Origin: Chloroflexi bacterium bin125
Lineage (GTDB): Bacteria > Chloroflexota > Dehalococcoidia > Bin125
Direction of reading: 5' to 3'
Length of the DNA stretch: 64,000 nt
Assembly: GCA_002239025.1 (NCBI GenBank)
Contig: MPNM01000012.1
Location: 1 to 64,000 of the forward strand
The notes under the pieces were generated by a model. The model had not been told where the DNA came from. It did no database searches and saw only the letters and a list, made by a program, of their open reading frames with translations. The position numbers and the translations under genes are program-made. The stretch's first letter is position 1. The number at the start of each line of letters is the position of its first letter. Below are positions 4,396 through 40,930 of this stretch, one piece after another.

Positions 4396-6960
4396 TTGCA
4401 CGGAAATAATCAGTCGCGCACACCCGAGCCACACATCAAACGTGAAATGGTTGCGCGCACCGGTGCGGAGCTTGGCAGGCAGGCCGCCCACAAACGGAGT
4501 TTCACTATGACGTATCCTGGCCCCACACTTCGCTCACCGGTCTGCGAGCTGATCGGCGGTCTCCTGACCGCGGCTCCGAGCTATCGGCGACGGTTGTTGG
4601 CCGTCAGTGCTCTGATCGCATTGCTGGTCCTGACTACTCTGCTAGCGGCCGACTTCTCCCGGAGCGCCACGGCACAGACAAGCGTCGCCCTGGTAGGAAA
4701 CAACCTCAAGGCGGACGTGAACGGGGTCTTTGGCTTCAACAAGGACCGCGCTCAAGCATTCACGACCGGCAGCAACAGCGCCGGCTACAAACTGACGAGC
4801 GTCCAGATCGGCGTCCAGATTGGGGCGACATCTGTCACGAGCTACAACGTGAAGGTCATGTCGGAGGGAACGTCCGGACCGGGCAGCACGAAGGTGGGCG
4901 ATTTGAACAATCCCACCAATCTGACTGCGGGGATCAGCAACAGTTTCTCGGCCTCCGGCGGTGGTCTCGATCTAAAGCCCAATACGACGTACTACATCCT
5001 CATGGACCTGTCCGCGAGTCACAACACGGTGGTCCTCAAGGCAACGAAAGATGACGGCGAGAATCCGAACCGCGCAGCGGGCTGGGGCATTGCCAACAAA
5101 TCCCTGTCTCGAAATCCCGGCAGCAGTGGCGCATGGACTTCGCTGAACAACAAGTGGAAGATCATCATCAATGGGTATGCGAAGACGCGACCAGTCCTCA
5201 AGAGAGCGGCGATCAACGGCGGCACGCTGGTACTTGACTATGACAAGGCTTTGGACACGGCTTCAGGCACGGCGCCTAGAAAGTTCTGGATCAAGGTCGA
5301 TGGCAGCACAGCGCGTCAACACGCACTCAAGCTCTCGATTAGCGGAACGCAGGTCAAGCTCAAGGTGCCGACCGTGAAGAGGGGCCAGGCGGTCACCCTG
5401 TGGTACGCCAAGCCGGCCCGCAATCCGCTCAAGGACGACGACAACACGGAAGCAGTCGCCATCCACCGTCGGATCGTGACCAACGATACGGGTGCGTCAA
5501 GGCTGGTAAGTAACATCCGCCAGGCGCAAGGCACGGCTTCTCCTGTGCAGCTCGGCGCTGATTATGCGCAGGAGTTTAGCACCGGCAGCCATGCTTACGG
5601 TTACAAGCTGACCCGGGTCGACATGCGAATGAGTGATAACTCCAACAGTCCGCCCAACTATTCGGTTTCCATCCACGAAGACTCGACCGGGGCGCCGGGC
5701 AGACGGCTCGCCACGCTCACCAACCCGACGTTCCTGCCCAGTACCGCAAGACTCGTGCAGTTCACGGCATCCGGTGGGATCGATCTCGCCCATCGCAGCA
5801 CCTATTGGGTGGTAATCGACATTCCCAATATTGAGTCGGCCGTCACAATTGCGGCAACGTCTTCTGACTCGGAGGATTCCATAGGGCTGGCGACCTGGAG
5901 CATTGCGAACAAACGCCGCGCGCGGCTCTATGGCGCGACTCAGTGGGGGATTGTCACTCAAACTAATGCCCTCAAGATCGCGATCAACGGCTATGCGAAA
6001 CCGGACACTACCCCGCCAACTGTCCAGACCACCGACGTCGAGGACAGCGGCAAGATGATGACAGTTCAGCTCAGCGAGGCGAACTTGAAGGGTGGCGTGG
6101 CCGCGACTGACTGGAGCTACTCGGTGGACGGCGTCAAGATCGACCCGGCTGCGAAAGCCATTGGTTGGTACCCCAGCATGGGCAAGATTACGTTCACGCT
6201 CGCCCAGACGGTCAAGCAGAACCAGGTGGTCAAGCTGCGCTACACAAAGGGCACAACGAACCCAATCCGTGACCAGGCGGACAACGCGCTTCCCAGCTTC
6301 AGTCGTCAGGTGGCGCCCAAGCTACAACACCAATCTCTGCAGCGGCTCAGGTCAACCGCTCTGTCGGCCGATCCGGCCAATCTGGCTCGCGGTCCGCTTT
6401 TGAGCAACGACGAGGTTGGGCCGCATGCGCTGCCTACTTCGATCTCGGAAATCAGCGGCAACAAGCCATCGGGCGCGTCCGGCTCACTCGACGTGAGCGA
6501 AATCGCCGCTTCCGTGCGCCAAGAACTGCGCCAGCACTCGCGGGGCACCTATCTGACTACGCAGGTCTTTGGCCTTGACGAACAGTCCAGTCTGGTTCGA
6601 CACAGCCCGGCTGGCGGGACGTACATGACAACCGCGTCAGGAGAGCGCTACGAGTTGGTGGGCGGCACGGCGCTGTTGCATGTCAAGCTCTGGCACGTCT
6701 ACCACCACAACGGACGAGGCTCGAACTCTATCGAGCGCCTCGGAGGTCCCTGGAATTCGCGCCGGGACAACAAGCTGGTGGAACCGGTTGAGGTCTGCTT
6801 GCCGATGCCCGACGAGGGCGGCGCTATCGCCGTGCGTATCAACGGTCAGTCCGCCTGGACGGTGCTGGAGACCGTCGAGCGAAGCGGCCAGATCTGCGCC
6901 GAACCGGTGCTCATCGGTTGGTTCGCGGTCGTCCATTCTTCGGATGTCCAGGGCGAGTAG
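4396..6960 (+). CDS. Secreted/surface protein with two choice-of-anchor-like and two SwmB-like repeat modules
   Basis: N-terminal hydrophobic segment RRRLLAVSALIALLVLTTLLAADFSRSATAQ; repeated blocks GYKLTxVxxxxx...YxVxxxxxxxGxPGxxxxxLxNPTxL and KTRPVLKRAAINGGTLVLDYDKALD. Likely start at 4507 (MTYPGP). Confidence 0.75.
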   Translation: MHGNNQSRTPEPHIKREMVARTGAELGRQAAHKRSFTMTYPGPTLRSPVCELIGGLLTAAPSYRRRLLAVSALIALLVLTTLLAADFSRSATAQTSVALVGNNLKADVNGVFGFNKDRAQAFTTGSNSAGYKLTSVQIGVQIGATSVTSYNVKVMSEGTSGPGSTKVGDLNNPTNLTAGISNSFSASGGGLDLKPNTTYYILMDLSASHNTVVLKATKDDGENPNRAAGWGIANKSLSRNPGSSGAWTSLNNKWKIIINGYAKTRPVLKRAAINGGTLVLDYDKALDTASGTAPRKFWIKVDGSTARQHALKLSISGTQVKLKVPTVKRGQAVTLWYAKPARNPLKDDDNTEAVAIHRRIVTNDTGASRLVSNIRQAQGTASPVQLGADYAQEFSTGSHAYGYKLTRVDMRMSDNSNSPPNYSVSIHEDSTGAPGRRLATLTNPTFLPSTARLVQFTASGGIDLAHRSTYWVVIDIPNIESAVTIAATSSDSEDSIGLATWSIANKRRARLYGATQWGIVTQTNALKIAINGYAKPDTTPPTVQTTDVEDSGKMMTVQLSEANLKGGVAATDWSYSVDGVKIDPAAKAIGWYPSMGKITFTLAQTVKQNQVVKLRYTKGTTNPIRDQADNALPSFSRQVAPKLQHQSLQRLRSTALSADPANLARGPLLSNDEVGPHALPTSISEISGNKPSGASGSLDVSEIAASVRQELRQHSRGTYLTTQVFGLDEQSSLVRHSPAGGTYMTTASGERYELVGGTALLHVKLWHVYHHNGRGSNSIERLGGPWNSRRDNKLVEPVEVCLPMPDEGGAIAVRINGQSAWTVLETVERSGQICAEPVLIGWFAVVHSSDVQGE

Positions 6961-7104
6961 TTCCTTCATGCCTCGTTGAGACCAGTCTTCTGACCTGACT
7001 AGGTCCTGGCCAGCCGCAGCAGAGCGGTACGCCGAGCGCAAGCCCGAACACTCCCCAATCGGACCTGCGCCCGCAGCGCCGTCCAGTGGGAACCGGGCGG
7101 CGGG

Positions 7105-7290
7105 ATGCACGCGCTACACGCACGAATCTGGGGCCTGTCGGCGTGGACGATTCTGCCGACCGTCGAGCGAGACGGACAGAGCTGCGCGGATACCGTGGTA
7201 ATCGGGTTGATTCTCAATCGTCCAACCATTGGACTCTCAGTCCAAGTGGCGAACGCCCAATGGTCTCGGTGGTCTCGCAACTGGAAGTGA
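7105..7290 (+). pseudogene. Degenerate copy of the C-terminus of the upstream 854-aa surface protein
   Basis: SAWTILPTVERDGQSCADTVVIGLILN versus SAWTVLETVERSGQICAEPVLIGWFAVV. Confidence 0.7.
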
Positions 7291-7534
7291 CGATCAATAC
7301 TGGTTTCCCTGTGCATCGCGCATGACCGTTATAGAGGCCCTATTGTTCAGAACCGAGGTGCCTTGTGCAGCCTGCGCGGTCCGTATCGATTGGCTGCATG
7401 CAAGTTGTGAAAACCGATCACCTTGAATCGACGATAGGCACAACAGGGATGGCAGTACTTGCAATTGTTCGGAGGCGCTGCTTACCGACTGCTCGTTTGG
7501 TTGCACCGCGACACGTTGGCGGCTCGGCAGTGGG

Positions 7535-9433
7535 CTAACGCGCATGGCTCGGATCGGAAAACTTGATGCCGCTGTCGGCTTCGTACGTCGCGGTGATCAT
7601 CAAGCTGGCAGGCAGGCCGTCCGTGACGAAGTCCACTTCGGTGAGCAGGCTCAGCGGCTCTCCCGTGAATTCGCGGTAGTAAATCGTCGTCCTGAAATCC
7701 AGGATTTCGTCAATCTGCCTCTCGACGCCGAGCAGGCCTGAAATCAGTTCGCGAACCGATTCGCTCATCCGCTCTAACGTGTATTCATCTGTCTCCAGTG
7801 GTCCGCTGGACAGGCTCAGCATCGAGGTGTTCGGTCCGAACCTAGTGGGCGCAGGCATAGTATGGACCCTGCAGTCGAGCGGACACCGCGGATTGAACTT
7901 GTCCAGATTGATCCGCGACCCGCTGGAGAGAAACTGCTCCAGGGAAGTTCCCAATCCGTGAAGCCCGGGTGCAGACATGACCCAGTCCGGGCTGCCGGCC
8001 TGCTCATCACTGCTGACCCAGAACCCGTCCTCGGTCCAGAGCTGACGCGATATCGAGCCGTCCTCGAAGTGCGACCAGGATTCATAAGCGCCTTGCGAGT
8101 GCGAGCTTCGAGCGCTCGTAAACACGACTCGTCGTTCACCGTCAATCACCAGTGTGGCGCTGTAATCCACCCTCAGTTCATCCGCCGCCGCCGCCCAACT
8201 GCTAACAAAATAGTACGCTCCTCCCTCACCGGTCCGCCAGATACCGAAAGATTCTTCTCCGCGGTCCATGGCAAGCTGCGCCCATTGGTACACGGCGTTG
8301 ACCCACCAAGAATCAACGAGCGGTTCAGGAGCGGGCAACTCAACCGGTTGATTCCATTCATTGAGCGTGAGCGTCCCGGTCAGGGTGACGTCATCCTGCT
8401 CATCTGGTACCCGGAACTGCCAGACGAACTCTTCCAGCGCTGGGGCTCCGGTGTCCCGATTGATCACGAGGCGAAAGCGCAATGACAACAGTTGTTCCCC
8501 ATCGCCGTCGTCGGCGGAGTCCGAATCGAATCCTGTGATTAGTGCGGCCGCCTTTGCCAACGATATGTTCTCGTCGACCAGGCACTCCAGGACCCACACT
8601 GGCTCTCCCTCCATCCGCTCTTCGACCACCGTGCCGCCGAACTCTTCGATGCAGCCGAAGACTCTATCGAACCCATCAAACTCAACGAAGCCGGTCTCGT
8701 CCGCGGCGAAGGGCGATCTGATGCCGGTGAGTGCTCGGAAGAAGAACAGGAGGTCGCCGTCGCCGGGCGGCTCCCCGGCGCTGCGCCACTCGGCCCAGCC
8801 AGGGAACAACGGCTGACCTTCCAAGACGGAAACATCTGCGGGGGATTGCGGCAATGGCGCGAGTAAGCGCCCCGAGAGCGCCATGAACACGCCCTCCGCC
8901 GTGCTCAGCTCGCGGAGCATGAGTCCTGGCGTCGGTTCGCCTACGAGCTCCTCCTCGTCACCCTCGATGAGCTGGATGAACGAGGACAGCGCAGACAGTT
9001 CGATGCTGGTCAACATGGCGACTGGCGAACGTTGTAGCGCGAACCGCGTGTTGACGACGGCTTCGGCGCCGTCATGTTCCATGCGGGCCTGGGCTTCGAA
9101 GAGTGCCGTGTCCAGGTTCAGGATCCACTCCGATAGGGCAGCCAACGCCTGGTCGAGAGGATCGCTGTCAGCCAGGGCACGACCCTCACTGTGCGTCTCC
9201 GCTTCGGGCCCTGGCCGGCTGTTTGACTCGGACTGCTGAAGTTGCTGTCGATCTTCGCTGACAGCTGGCTGTTGCCTCCTGGACTGTGCTTCGGCCCCTG
9301 GCCGACTGTTCGACTCGGACTGCGCTTGAGCTCCGCTCGCTCGTTCCTGTACGGGCTTGTCGCCCGAACATGCAACCAGAACCATCAGTGACGCCACAGC
9401 GATGAGGAGGAAGCTGCCTGGCGCTCGTGTCAT
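7535..9433 (-). CDS. Putative lipoprotein, 632 aa
   Basis: Signal peptide with lipobox (SLMVLVACSGD); repeated QSESNSRPGxEAxS linker; long intact ORF. Confidence 0.8.
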   Translation of the reverse strand: MTRAPGSFLLIAVASLMVLVACSGDKPVQERASGAQAQSESNSRPGAEAQSRRQQPAVSEDRQQLQQSESNSRPGPEAETHSEGRALADSDPLDQALAALSEWILNLDTALFEAQARMEHDGAEAVVNTRFALQRSPVAMLTSIELSALSSFIQLIEGDEEELVGEPTPGLMLRELSTAEGVFMALSGRLLAPLPQSPADVSVLEGQPLFPGWAEWRSAGEPPGDGDLLFFFRALTGIRSPFAADETGFVEFDGFDRVFGCIEEFGGTVVEERMEGEPVWVLECLVDENISLAKAAALITGFDSDSADDGDGEQLLSLRFRLVINRDTGAPALEEFVWQFRVPDEQDDVTLTGTLTLNEWNQPVELPAPEPLVDSWWVNAVYQWAQLAMDRGEESFGIWRTGEGGAYYFVSSWAAAADELRVDYSATLVIDGERRVVFTSARSSHSQGAYESWSHFEDGSISRQLWTEDGFWVSSDEQAGSPDWVMSAPGLHGLGTSLEQFLSSGSRINLDKFNPRCPLDCRVHTMPAPTRFGPNTSMLSLSSGPLETDEYTLERMSESVRELISGLLGVERQIDEILDFRTTIYYREFTGEPLSLLTEVDFVTDGLPASLMITATYEADSGIKFSDPSHAR

Positions 9434-37983: not shown

Positions 37984-38760
37984 ATGCCAGACAGATTCGA
38001 GGGTAAGGTCGTCGCGATCACAGGTGCCGCAGGAGGTATCGGCCGGGCGACCGCCGTCCGTTTCGCGTCTGAGGGTGCCCGGATCTTGGCCGTCGATTTA
38101 GCGCATTCCGGGATCGACGAGACGGTAGCAGCAGTACAGCGGGTCGGCGGTCAAGTCGCCACTCATGAAGCCGATGTCACCGTCGCTAGTCAGGTCGACG
38201 GCTATGTCCAGGCGGCGCTCGATCAGTTCGGCCAGATCGATGTGTTTTTCAACAACGCCGGCATCGAGGGCTGGGTCGGGTCGCTGTTGGATTACCCGGA
38301 AGATGAGTTTGATCGAGTCTTTGCGGTCAACGTCAAGGGTGTTTTCCTCGGACTGCAGGCTGTCGGACGAGTGATGCGGGAAGCTGGTGGGGGCGCAATC
38401 ATCAACACAGCTTCGGTCGCCGGGCTCCAGGCGACAGCGGTCGCGGCGGCATACGGAGCCAGCAAGAGCGCAGTCGTGGGTTTGACGAAGTCCGCCGCCA
38501 TCGCATTCGTCGACGACGGCATCCGCGTCAACGCCATCTGTCCCGGTCCGATTGAAACGCGCATGATGCGCGCCATGGAGCGCGGCGTCAATCCAGACGA
38601 CCCTGAAGCCGTGCACCGGAACCTCGCCGCGTCGACGCCCATGGGACGCTACGGTGAAGCCGAAGAGATCGCAGCGATGGTTGCCTTCCTGGCCAGCGAC
38701 GACGCGTCCTACATCACCGGCGGCATCTACCCTGTCGATGGCGGCACTCGCGCGAACTAG
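37984..38760 (+). CDS. SDR-family oxidoreductase
   Basis: TGAAGGIG nucleotide-binding motif, NNAG, YGASK active site. Confidence 0.95.
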   Translation: MPDRFEGKVVAITGAAGGIGRATAVRFASEGARILAVDLAHSGIDETVAAVQRVGGQVATHEADVTVASQVDGYVQAALDQFGQIDVFFNNAGIEGWVGSLLDYPEDEFDRVFAVNVKGVFLGLQAVGRVMREAGGGAIINTASVAGLQATAVAAAYGASKSAVVGLTKSAAIAFVDDGIRVNAICPGPIETRMMRAMERGVNPDDPEAVHRNLAASTPMGRYGEAEEIAAMVAFLASDDASYITGGIYPVDGGTRAN

Positions 38761-38825: not shown

Positions 38826-39311
38826 ATGGCACGGATCGATATCGCACCTGGCGAAGGCGAAGAAAGCACCCGATTGTTCAAGCCGCGCCCTGAACTGGGT
38901 GCCGCGATGACAGCGCTCTCCCGAGCAGTCGTTGAGCACAGCCAGCTGCCCGTTCGCGAACGGGAACTCGTTCGCATGCGCATCGCGGAGATCAATCAGT
39001 GCTCCGTTTGACTGGACACGCGCTCTGCATCGGCGATGCAGAATGGTCTGACTGAAGAGGCATACGCACAGGTCTCGGACTACAGAGAGAACCCGCTCTA
39101 CACCGATCGAGAACGGGCTGCGATCGACTTCGCCGAGCGCTTCTGCTACGACCACTCGTCAATGGACGACGATTACTGGGTCGGCCTGCGAACCCTGTTC
39201 GGCGACGACGAGATCCTCGATCTCTCCACCTGCGTCGCCTGTTTCGTTGGCGGCGGCCGCCAACTCGCCGTGCTCGGCATCCATCGGGAATGCCCAACGC
39301 AGATTCCCTAG
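38826..39311 (+). CDS. Carboxymuconolactone decarboxylase/AhpD-like protein, predicted selenoprotein (Sec = TGA 39009-39011)
   Basis: Uninterrupted frame except one TGA: ...VRMRIAEINQCSV[TGA]LDTRSASAMQNGLTEEAYAQVSDYRENPLYTDRERAAIDFAERF...; TGA replaces the second Cys of CxxC; RBS aggagc upstream. Confidence 0.8.
39024..39042 (+). promoter_or_regulatory. Candidate bacterial SECIS hairpin
   Basis: TCTGCATC-GGC-GATGCAGA, 8-bp perfect stem; apical loop at 39032-39034, first loop base 21 nt past the TGA. Confidence 0.65.
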
Positions 39312-39332
39312 CATCCTCCCAGGAGGCCCACC

Positions 39333-39863
39333 ATGCCCGTCACCTTCCTCGAACCTACCGCCGAAGACGGCATCGCCGTTGAGCCCTACGAACTCTTCGC
39401 CGATACCAGCGGCCCCATTGCGGTCGGCCTGGTCTCCAACGCCTTTCCCGACGGCACACTCTTCATGCACAAGCTGGAAGCGGAACTGGCGAGCGCGATG
39501 CCGCAGGCCACCTTCCGCCACTACCAGAAACCGAATGTCGCTCCCGTCACCGGGGAGCTCGTCGACGCCGTCACCGAAGAGTGCGACGTCGTCCTCGCCG
39601 CCTGGGGACATTGAGGCGGCTGCACATCCGGCACCGTGCGTGACGGAGCAATCTTCGCCAAGGCCGGCCTCCCCGCCGTCGCCATCGTCACCGAGGCCTT
39701 CGTCGAACTGGCCGCCTTCACCGCCGAGGCCGTGGGCATGCCCGCGGTCCCTCGTTATGTCCTGCCACATCCCTGCTCCGGCACCGGCGACGAGAACCTG
39801 GCTCGCGTCGCCCGCGAGGCCGCGCCCGGCATCATCGACCTGCTCGAAGGCCACACGCGGTGA
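39333..39863 (+). CDS. UGSC-family protein, predicted selenoprotein (Sec = TGA 39612-39614)
   Basis: Frame reads ...ECDVVLAAWGH[TGA]GGCTSGTVRDGAIFAKAGLPAVAIVTEAFVELAAFTAEAVGMPAVPRYVLPHP...; matches the UGSCTSxTVxDG active-site family; RBS aggagg upstream. Confidence 0.82.
39628..39646 (+). promoter_or_regulatory. Candidate bacterial SECIS hairpin
   Basis: CCG-g-CAC-CGTGC-GTG-a-CGG; apical loop 39635-39639, first loop base 21 nt past the TGA. Confidence 0.5.
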
Positions 39864-40930
39864 CCCTCCAGGCCACGCGCCACCAGGCCCCGGACGAGGC
39901 GACCGCGCTCGAGCTCTTCCATATGCGCGAGTGGACTGACGGCCTACCTGTAGTCATCCCCACCGAGGAGCGCGTTGTAGCCCTGCTCGCCGGGGTCGAA
40001 CTCGAACCGGACGTGATCATCGGCAAGATCGGTCCCAGCCAGGCCTCAGTCGAGAAGATCGCGATCAACGCCGTCATGGCCGGTTGCCGCCCGGAACACT
40101 TCCCGGTCGTGCTTGCCGCCGTGCGCGCCGTCGGCGATTCCGAGTTCGACATCGACAACATGCAGTCGACGACCCACGGGATGGGACCGGTTGTCATCGT
40201 CAACGGACCCGCCCGTGAGGTCTGCGGACCGATCGCCTCCGGTTGGGGCGCGCTCGGCCCGGGACATCGAGCGAACGCCAGCATCGGCCGAGCCCTGCGC
40301 CTCTGCCTGATGAACATCGGCGGCGCGCGACCCGGCCACGGCGACATGGCCGCCCTCGGACAGCCCGGTAAGTTCACCTGCTGCCTCGCCGAAGATGAGG
40401 AAGGAAGCCCCTTCACGCCGCTGCACACTGCCTTCGGTTACGACGCCGACCAGTCCGCGGTCACCCTCGTCGGCGTGGACGCCCCCCACTCGGTGATGAT
40501 GCAGACCAACGACGACGATCCCGAAGCGCACGAACGTATTCTCCGAGTCGTCGCCGGATCGATCGCCATTCCCGGCGGCAACAACACGCAGATCGGCAAC
40601 GGCCCGGTAATCGTCGTCCTCAACCCCATCCACGCCGGCGTCCTGGCCAACGCCGGACTCAGCCGAGAAGACGTCTGCGAGCGCCTCACGAAGCTGGCCG
40701 TAACGCCCAACGCAGTCATGCGGGGCTGGGCCACGAAACGGCGCATTCCCGAAGGCGACGGCGATCTCCCCGCGCTGCGAGGCCCTGAAGACATCGTCCT
40801 GATCGTCGCCGGAGGAGGCGGAATGTACTCCGCCGTCTTCAGTGGAGGCCTCGCCGGATCAACTCACCCGGTCCACGCCCCCATCGACTTCGACTTCTCC
40901 TGCGAACTCCCCGGCCTACCACCCACCTAG
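39860..40930 (+). CDS. Conserved protein, translationally coupled to the UGSC gene (GTGA overlap)
   Basis: Intact 356-aa ORF from GTG 39860 overlapping the stop at 39861-39863. Confidence 0.75.
   Translation: MTLQATRHQAPDEATALELFHMREWTDGLPVVIPTEERVVALLAGVELEPDVIIGKIGPSQASVEKIAINAVMAGCRPEHFPVVLAAVRAVGDSEFDIDNMQSTTHGMGPVVIVNGPAREVCGPIASGWGALGPGHRANASIGRALRLCLMNIGGARPGHGDMAALGQPGKFTCCLAEDEEGSPFTPLHTAFGYDADQSAVTLVGVDAPHSVMMQTNDDDPEAHERILRVVAGSIAIPGGNNTQIGNGPVIVVLNPIHAGVLANAGLSREDVCERLTKLAVTPNAVMRGWATKRRIPEGDGDLPALRGPEDIVLIVAGGGGMYSAVFSGGLAGSTHPVHAPIDFDFSCELPGLPPT

Follow-up and report, generated by a model that had tools for sequence, protein, structure and literature searches.

Two groups of described proteins are among those closest to the gene analyzed here. 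GrdB and PrdB, selenoprotein B of glycine and D-proline reductase (PF07355), carry the selenocysteine (Sec) domain of these enzymes and have a pyruvoyl partner. Glycine reductase is thioredoxin-linked. UxxCxxC is the GrdB motif (PMC13188914). The second group, UGSC, appears in the literature without a characterised function, and a thioredoxin (Trx)-like fold was presumed for it (PMC2398784). We analyzed a window of 64,000 nucleotides (nt) from Chloroflexi bacterium bin125 (assembly GCA_002239025.1, contig MPNM01000012.1, positions 1 to 64,000), in which positions 39333-39863 encode a member of this known selenoprotein family, followed by a gene for a 356-amino-acid (aa) partner, p356.

The UGSC gene is a single frame that starts with ATG at 39333, contains one internal TGA and ends with a second TGA at 39861-39863. 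The protein context of the predicted Sec is AAWGH-U-GGCTSGTVRDGAIF. An earlier reading made from the sequence only had described this frame and its AAWGH context, both of which we saw again, and had proposed a hidden Markov model (HMM) search with the UGSC family. That search assigned the gene to PF24696: residues 7-172 of the 176 scored 136.8 bits, above the Pfam gathering score of 25 bits. The score of the window UGSC against NF041046 was 102.1 bits, which did not reach the equivalog cut-off (125 bits). The features of the pair are as follows.

39333..39863, + strand: gene for a selenoprotein of the UGSC family, 176 aa including Sec94 (PF24696, 136.8 bits)
39612..39614, + strand: in-frame TGA, predicted Sec94, in the motif UGGC; this column holds Cys in Natrialba, in Sphingomonas and in a metagenome-assembled genome (MAG) labelled Methanobacteriaceae
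39627..39647, + strand: hairpin of the UGSC gene resembling a bacterial selenocysteine insertion sequence (SECIS), with an apical loop CGUGC that starts 21 nt past the TGA
39321..39326, + strand: ribosome-binding site AGGAGG for UGSC, from the sequence
39860..40930, + strand: p356 gene, with a GTG start that overlaps the UGSC stop (GTGA); assigned by its pairing with UGSC

We compared UGSC with GrdB/PrdB using profiles read through the Sec codon. hhalign gave a probability of 95.5% (E 1.5e-8) with the Sec columns aligned and a PHPxGD segment in register. A second UGSC alignment reached 92.3%, and two control profile comparisons gave 0.2-0.3%. By this comparison, UGSC is distantly related to the GrdB/PrdB Sec domain. 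The likeness covers the Sec half, with UxxC and a similar C-terminal PHPxGD segment, and extends in part to UxxCxxC, which is found in a subset of UGSCs (UGSCTTC), and to trxB/trxA neighbours in some clusters. Unlike GrdB/PrdB, UGSC lacks the N-terminal GrdB half, is partnered by p356, in which no resemblance to the pyruvoyl subunits was detected, and occurs in haloarchaea and other lineages that use a Cys form. Direct HMM and PDB-sequence searches returned no UGSC homologue beyond PF24696, and a literature search, which did not cover Haft and Tolstoy 2025, found no published statement of a UGSC-GrdB link.

The UGSC part of a structural model matched Rossmann-type proteins such as lumazine synthase, with no thioredoxin among the top matches listed. 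The window gene agrees with the described family (PF24696; NCBIfam NF041046; PMC2398784) in its domain match, Sec at UGxC and SECIS. Against the family literature, our structural model and profile comparison indicate a Rossmann-type domain related to GrdB/PrdB, and this domain has a dedicated partner. We also observed short PrdB-like genes in the genus that match PF07355, for example in the source genome (G000:C19:56871-57260, L184). In those that we read, the match ends just before a TGA (e.g., PV-TGA-PFC), so these genes look like further selenoproteins.

We examined how often p356 accompanies UGSC. In loci fetched through UGSC alone, 64 of the 67 UGSC domains had p356 within 450 nt, always on the same strand. 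A p356 scan found it beside UGSC in many phyla, among them Chloroflexota, Methylomirabilota/Rokubacteria, Proteobacteria, Bacillus and haloarchaea; this second set of loci was fetched through p356 and is therefore biased toward pairs. Fusions of UGSC to p356 through a stop-free linker were common and came from many phyla. The Global Ocean Sampling study (PMC2398784) describes a UGSC/Unknown_1 fusion in which UGSC is joined to an unknown conserved domain, possibly p356. In the source genome, one UGSC adjoins three consecutive p356 genes (L062 6762-10768, G000:C12), an arrangement that suggests that one UGSC may serve several p356 partners.

Two further genes lie upstream of the pair.

38826..39311, + strand: CMD/AhpD-like selenoprotein gene with a CSVU (CxxU) motif (PF02627, 55.6 bits)
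39009..39011, + strand: in-frame TGA (Sec) of the CMD gene, kept in 4/4 orthologues
39024..39042, + strand: SECIS-like hairpin of the CMD gene, with an 8-bp stem and a loop GGC that starts 21 nt past the TGA
37984..38760, + strand: SDR-family oxidoreductase gene, accessory and not always there (PF13561, 218.5 bits; none in L067)

The sequence-only reading had taken SDR-CMD-UGSC as the module and had suggested a neighbourhood survey of these genes with p356. The survey did not bear out that module. CMD was missing from the otherwise intact genus cluster L069, and SDR from the otherwise intact L067. What is conserved from haloarchaea to Chloroflexota is the pair of UGSC and p356, often fused; CMD and SDR are optional. 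The upstream CMD gene is of the known PF02627 CxxU kind and is not obligatory in this unit. A Pfam scan also found two CoA-transferase III genes in the window. One cluster in the genus has decayed (L071, G014:C38:121000-137000, at 6812-9138). There, SDR is split, CMD is absent, UGSC lacks its N-terminal half and Sec site, and p356 carries a nonsense TGA (SPFPP*HTT).

p356 had no match in Pfam, NCBIfam, PHROGs or PDB sequences, and annotated plasmids list it as a hypothetical protein. A search of a viral fold library gave no match at E up to 0.001. Matches to FtsZ and succinate dehydrogenase in direct searches on p356/UGSC were weak, and we judged them to be chance. An AlphaFold2 model of p356 alone had a predicted local distance difference test score (pLDDT) of 92.6, and a model of a natural UGSC-p356 fusion had a pLDDT of 91.7 and a predicted template-modelling score of 0.92. 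Because only weak fold matches were found, the fold of p356 may be new or very distant. The protein has conserved polar residues of its own, with Cys76 invariant and Cys175 near-invariant.

We assessed the genes around the pair for signs of its function. The order trxB-trxA-p356-UGSC was found in Arthrobacter and p356-UGSC-trxB in Roseovarius, and trxB lies near the pair in Variovorax SRS16. By analogy, these clusters, though a minority, resemble the arrangement of thioredoxin-linked glycine reductase. TctC receptors made up 22 of 199 neighbour proteins. Haloarchaeal plasmids carry CoA-transferase, CoA ester lyase and TRAP-transporter genes near the pair, and aconitase X genes adjoin the fused forms of Sporomusa and Vibrio. 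The trxB clusters, together with the organic-acid uptake and CoA-acid neighbours, lead us to prefer a selenol reductase with organic acids as its substrates. We put at about even the chance that this genuine selenoprotein and p356 form a thioredoxin-coupled, selenol-based, two-component (sometimes fused) reductase in organic-acid catabolism.

In such a reductase, p356 would bind an organic-acid-like substrate. Sec94, which like the Sec of GrdB/PrdB would sit where a Rossmann-type strand ends, would attack the substrate and cleave or reduce a bond. The Cys at +3 would free the selenol via an Se-S bridge, and thioredoxin/thioredoxin reductase would regenerate it, a coupling that is presumed in this organism. 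The pair would serve carboxylate or CoA-type catabolism, and some Chloroflexota may have multiplied it to extend the range of substrates. As half of a two-part enzyme related to the Sec domain of glycine/proline reductase, UGSC becomes part of a testable enzyme. The sequence-only reading had inferred a thiol/selenol redox module; its redox Sec site stands, and a general redox or peroxidase role is less supported than a catabolic reductase. Overall, what it had observed is confirmed, and its interpretation is partly supported.

Several results weigh against the proposed two-component reductase. In a direct scan of 59 UGSC members, PF07355 (GRDB) was not among the families listed at E up to 1; HMM searches may have missed the link because the Pfam GRDB model ends just before Sec. 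The window UGSC (UGGCTSG) lacks the third Cys of UxxCxxC, and p356 did not detectably resemble the pyruvoyl partner of GrdB/PrdB and had no Pfam match. TrxB is near a minority of pairs, with one weak TrxB-like match in 80 named loci. p356 also occurs in some loci without a nearby UGSC (e.g., L125 3120-6235, with three tandem p356 copies). In the PDB, the folds that match p356 best are those of class I fumarases and of cyanuric acid hydrolase/barbiturases; these matches are weak (best match: E 3.4e-3, probability 0.57, TM score about 0.25) and could mean lyase/hydratase chemistry.

A role of UGSC-p356 as a thiol/selenol peroxidase or as a general antioxidant pair, with CMD (AhpD-like, CxxU) as reductant, seems unlikely to us. 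CMD/AhpD relatives include alkylhydroperoxidases, UGSC and CMD both carry Sec here, and a UxxC site suits peroxidatic or disulfide-exchange chemistry; yet CMD is absent from the otherwise intact L069, and the conserved polar residues of p356 and the transport and CoA-acid neighbours speak against this role. The presence of more than 100 diverged copies in one genome (see below) suits substrate diversification better than antioxidant defence.

A second alternative makes p356 a lyase/hydratase-like enzyme, of a distant class I fumarase or Toblerone-fold type, to which UGSC gives a Sec/Cys ligand or a regulatory thiol and not a reductant. The best fold matches all fall in the two groups named above, p356 has its invariant Cys76 and near-invariant Cys175, and aconitase X lies beside the fused forms. 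We nevertheless find this doubtful, given the weakness of those matches, the alignment of UGSC with a reductase Sec domain and the trxB neighbours, which point to redox turnover.

We asked whether the TGA is read as Sec. The source genome (3.68 Mb, 96.7% complete) contains complete Sec machinery: tRNA-Sec (66.4 bits; called SeC with anticodon tca by ARAGORN), SelA (516 bits), SelB (622 aa, 328 bits) and SelD (351 bits), whose gene has a TGA of its own. It also has four UGSC paralogues, each with exactly one TGA. TGA occupies UGxC in 140 of the 145 UGSC domains examined, and in none (0/145) is it found solely at another place. The other five comprise three with Cys at the site (Natrialba asiatica, a Sphingomonas MAG and the Methanobacteriaceae-labelled MAG) and two without the site. 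The sequence-only reading, which had placed Sec at the UGSC active site, had named absent Sec machinery and stops at varied positions as what would overturn it; we found neither. That the in-frame TGA is a real Sec codon is as near to certain as sequence comparison, short of experiment, allows.

These data leave very little room for the TGA being a nonsense mutation or sequencing error in a decaying pseudogene. Decay does happen in the genus, as in the G014 copy (L071), but the same TGA is present in 5/5 intact genus orthologues of UGSC. Across these five, the ratio of nonsynonymous to synonymous substitution rates was 0.066 downstream of the TGA and 0.140 upstream, and ~4 in shifted frames, so purifying selection persists beyond the TGA. 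An internal TGA occurs in 1 of 170 p356 copies, namely the one in the decayed G014 cluster, and the codons of the UGSC hairpin are invariant. We regard the pseudogene explanation as refuted by these comparisons. A genetic code in which TGA stands for an ordinary amino acid, with no selenium involved, is equally improbable. No evidence was found to favour this reading, and we rejected it because the UGSC gene itself stops at TGA with p356 starting across that stop, and because Sec machinery is complete, TGA occurs only at the redox site and other lineages have Cys there.

A TGA-containing UGSC gene has been annotated as two hypothetical proteins split at the TGA on Paracoccus ferrooxidans plasmid pFER4 (L198 5941-6510). 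It adjoins p356, and selB lies ~4 kb away on the same plasmid.

The proposed SECIS hairpin, with a loop starting 21 nt past the TGA and the same offset in CMD, was located in both genes. The UGSC hairpin has the stem UCCG.CAC / GUG.CGGA and a G at the second position of its loop. In the window alone it was no more stable than shuffled sequences (z +0.5), so the evidence for SECIS is comparative and comes from conservation. The sole run of seven invariant codons among the five UGSC orthologues is the hairpin region, codons +5 to +11 past the TGA, and in the CMD orthologues the sole such window is +4 to +10 past theirs. Of 131 non-identical UGSC homologues, 104 have a hairpin at the same spacing whose loop carries an early G (27.9 expected from synonymous shuffles). 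Hairpin pair 18-24, which joins two wobble positions, switches from GC (75) to CG (43) and is paired in 92%, compared to 51% expected if independent. In position and conservation, the gene has the SECIS hairpin with an early apical-loop G by which bacterial selenoproteins are recognised.

We also assessed the number of UGSC genes per genome. UGSC was present in 132 of the 393 genomes of the class. A search of G045, a Chloroflexi MAG of the same class with 7% contamination, scored 150 of 208 candidates, so that G045 has 150 UGSC genes or more; by table reading all but four have TGA, which makes at least 146. Another genome, G046, had 46 UGSC genes. The G045 copies are diverged, with a median best identity of about 58% and no pair above 90% among 34 sampled UGSC domains; strain mixing as the source of the 150 copies was rejected on this basis. 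SelA and a TGA-containing SelD are present in G045. Its tRNA-Sec was not found, the best match being a tRNA-Ser; perhaps the assembly lacks it, or the first stage of the search lost it.

The largest bacterial selenoproteomes reported have 57 and 63 members (2026 review, PMC13188914). The Sec-type UGSCs of G045 are more than twice the largest bacterial selenoprotein counts that we found reported. We tentatively suggest, at somewhat less than even odds, that UGSC and p356 form a new superfamily of two-component catabolic reductases that depend on Sec, distantly related to GrdB/PrdB through UGSC and with a possibly new partner fold, of which ~150-200 diverged selenoenzymes in one Chloroflexota genome attack many refractory organic acids. 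If true, no larger selenoproteome would be known, and selenium would have a major role in carbon turnover that has gone unrecognised; a selenoproteome of the G045 type would link selenium supply to organic-matter breakdown.

A few G045 copies (L044-L053, L218-L221) lack the Sec site. Three UGSCs with an apparent double TGA were checked. Two have the second TGA near the N-terminal end of the match, and one, in G045 (L052:6941-7357), is a true UGTU with the second TGA at the position of the resolving Cys.
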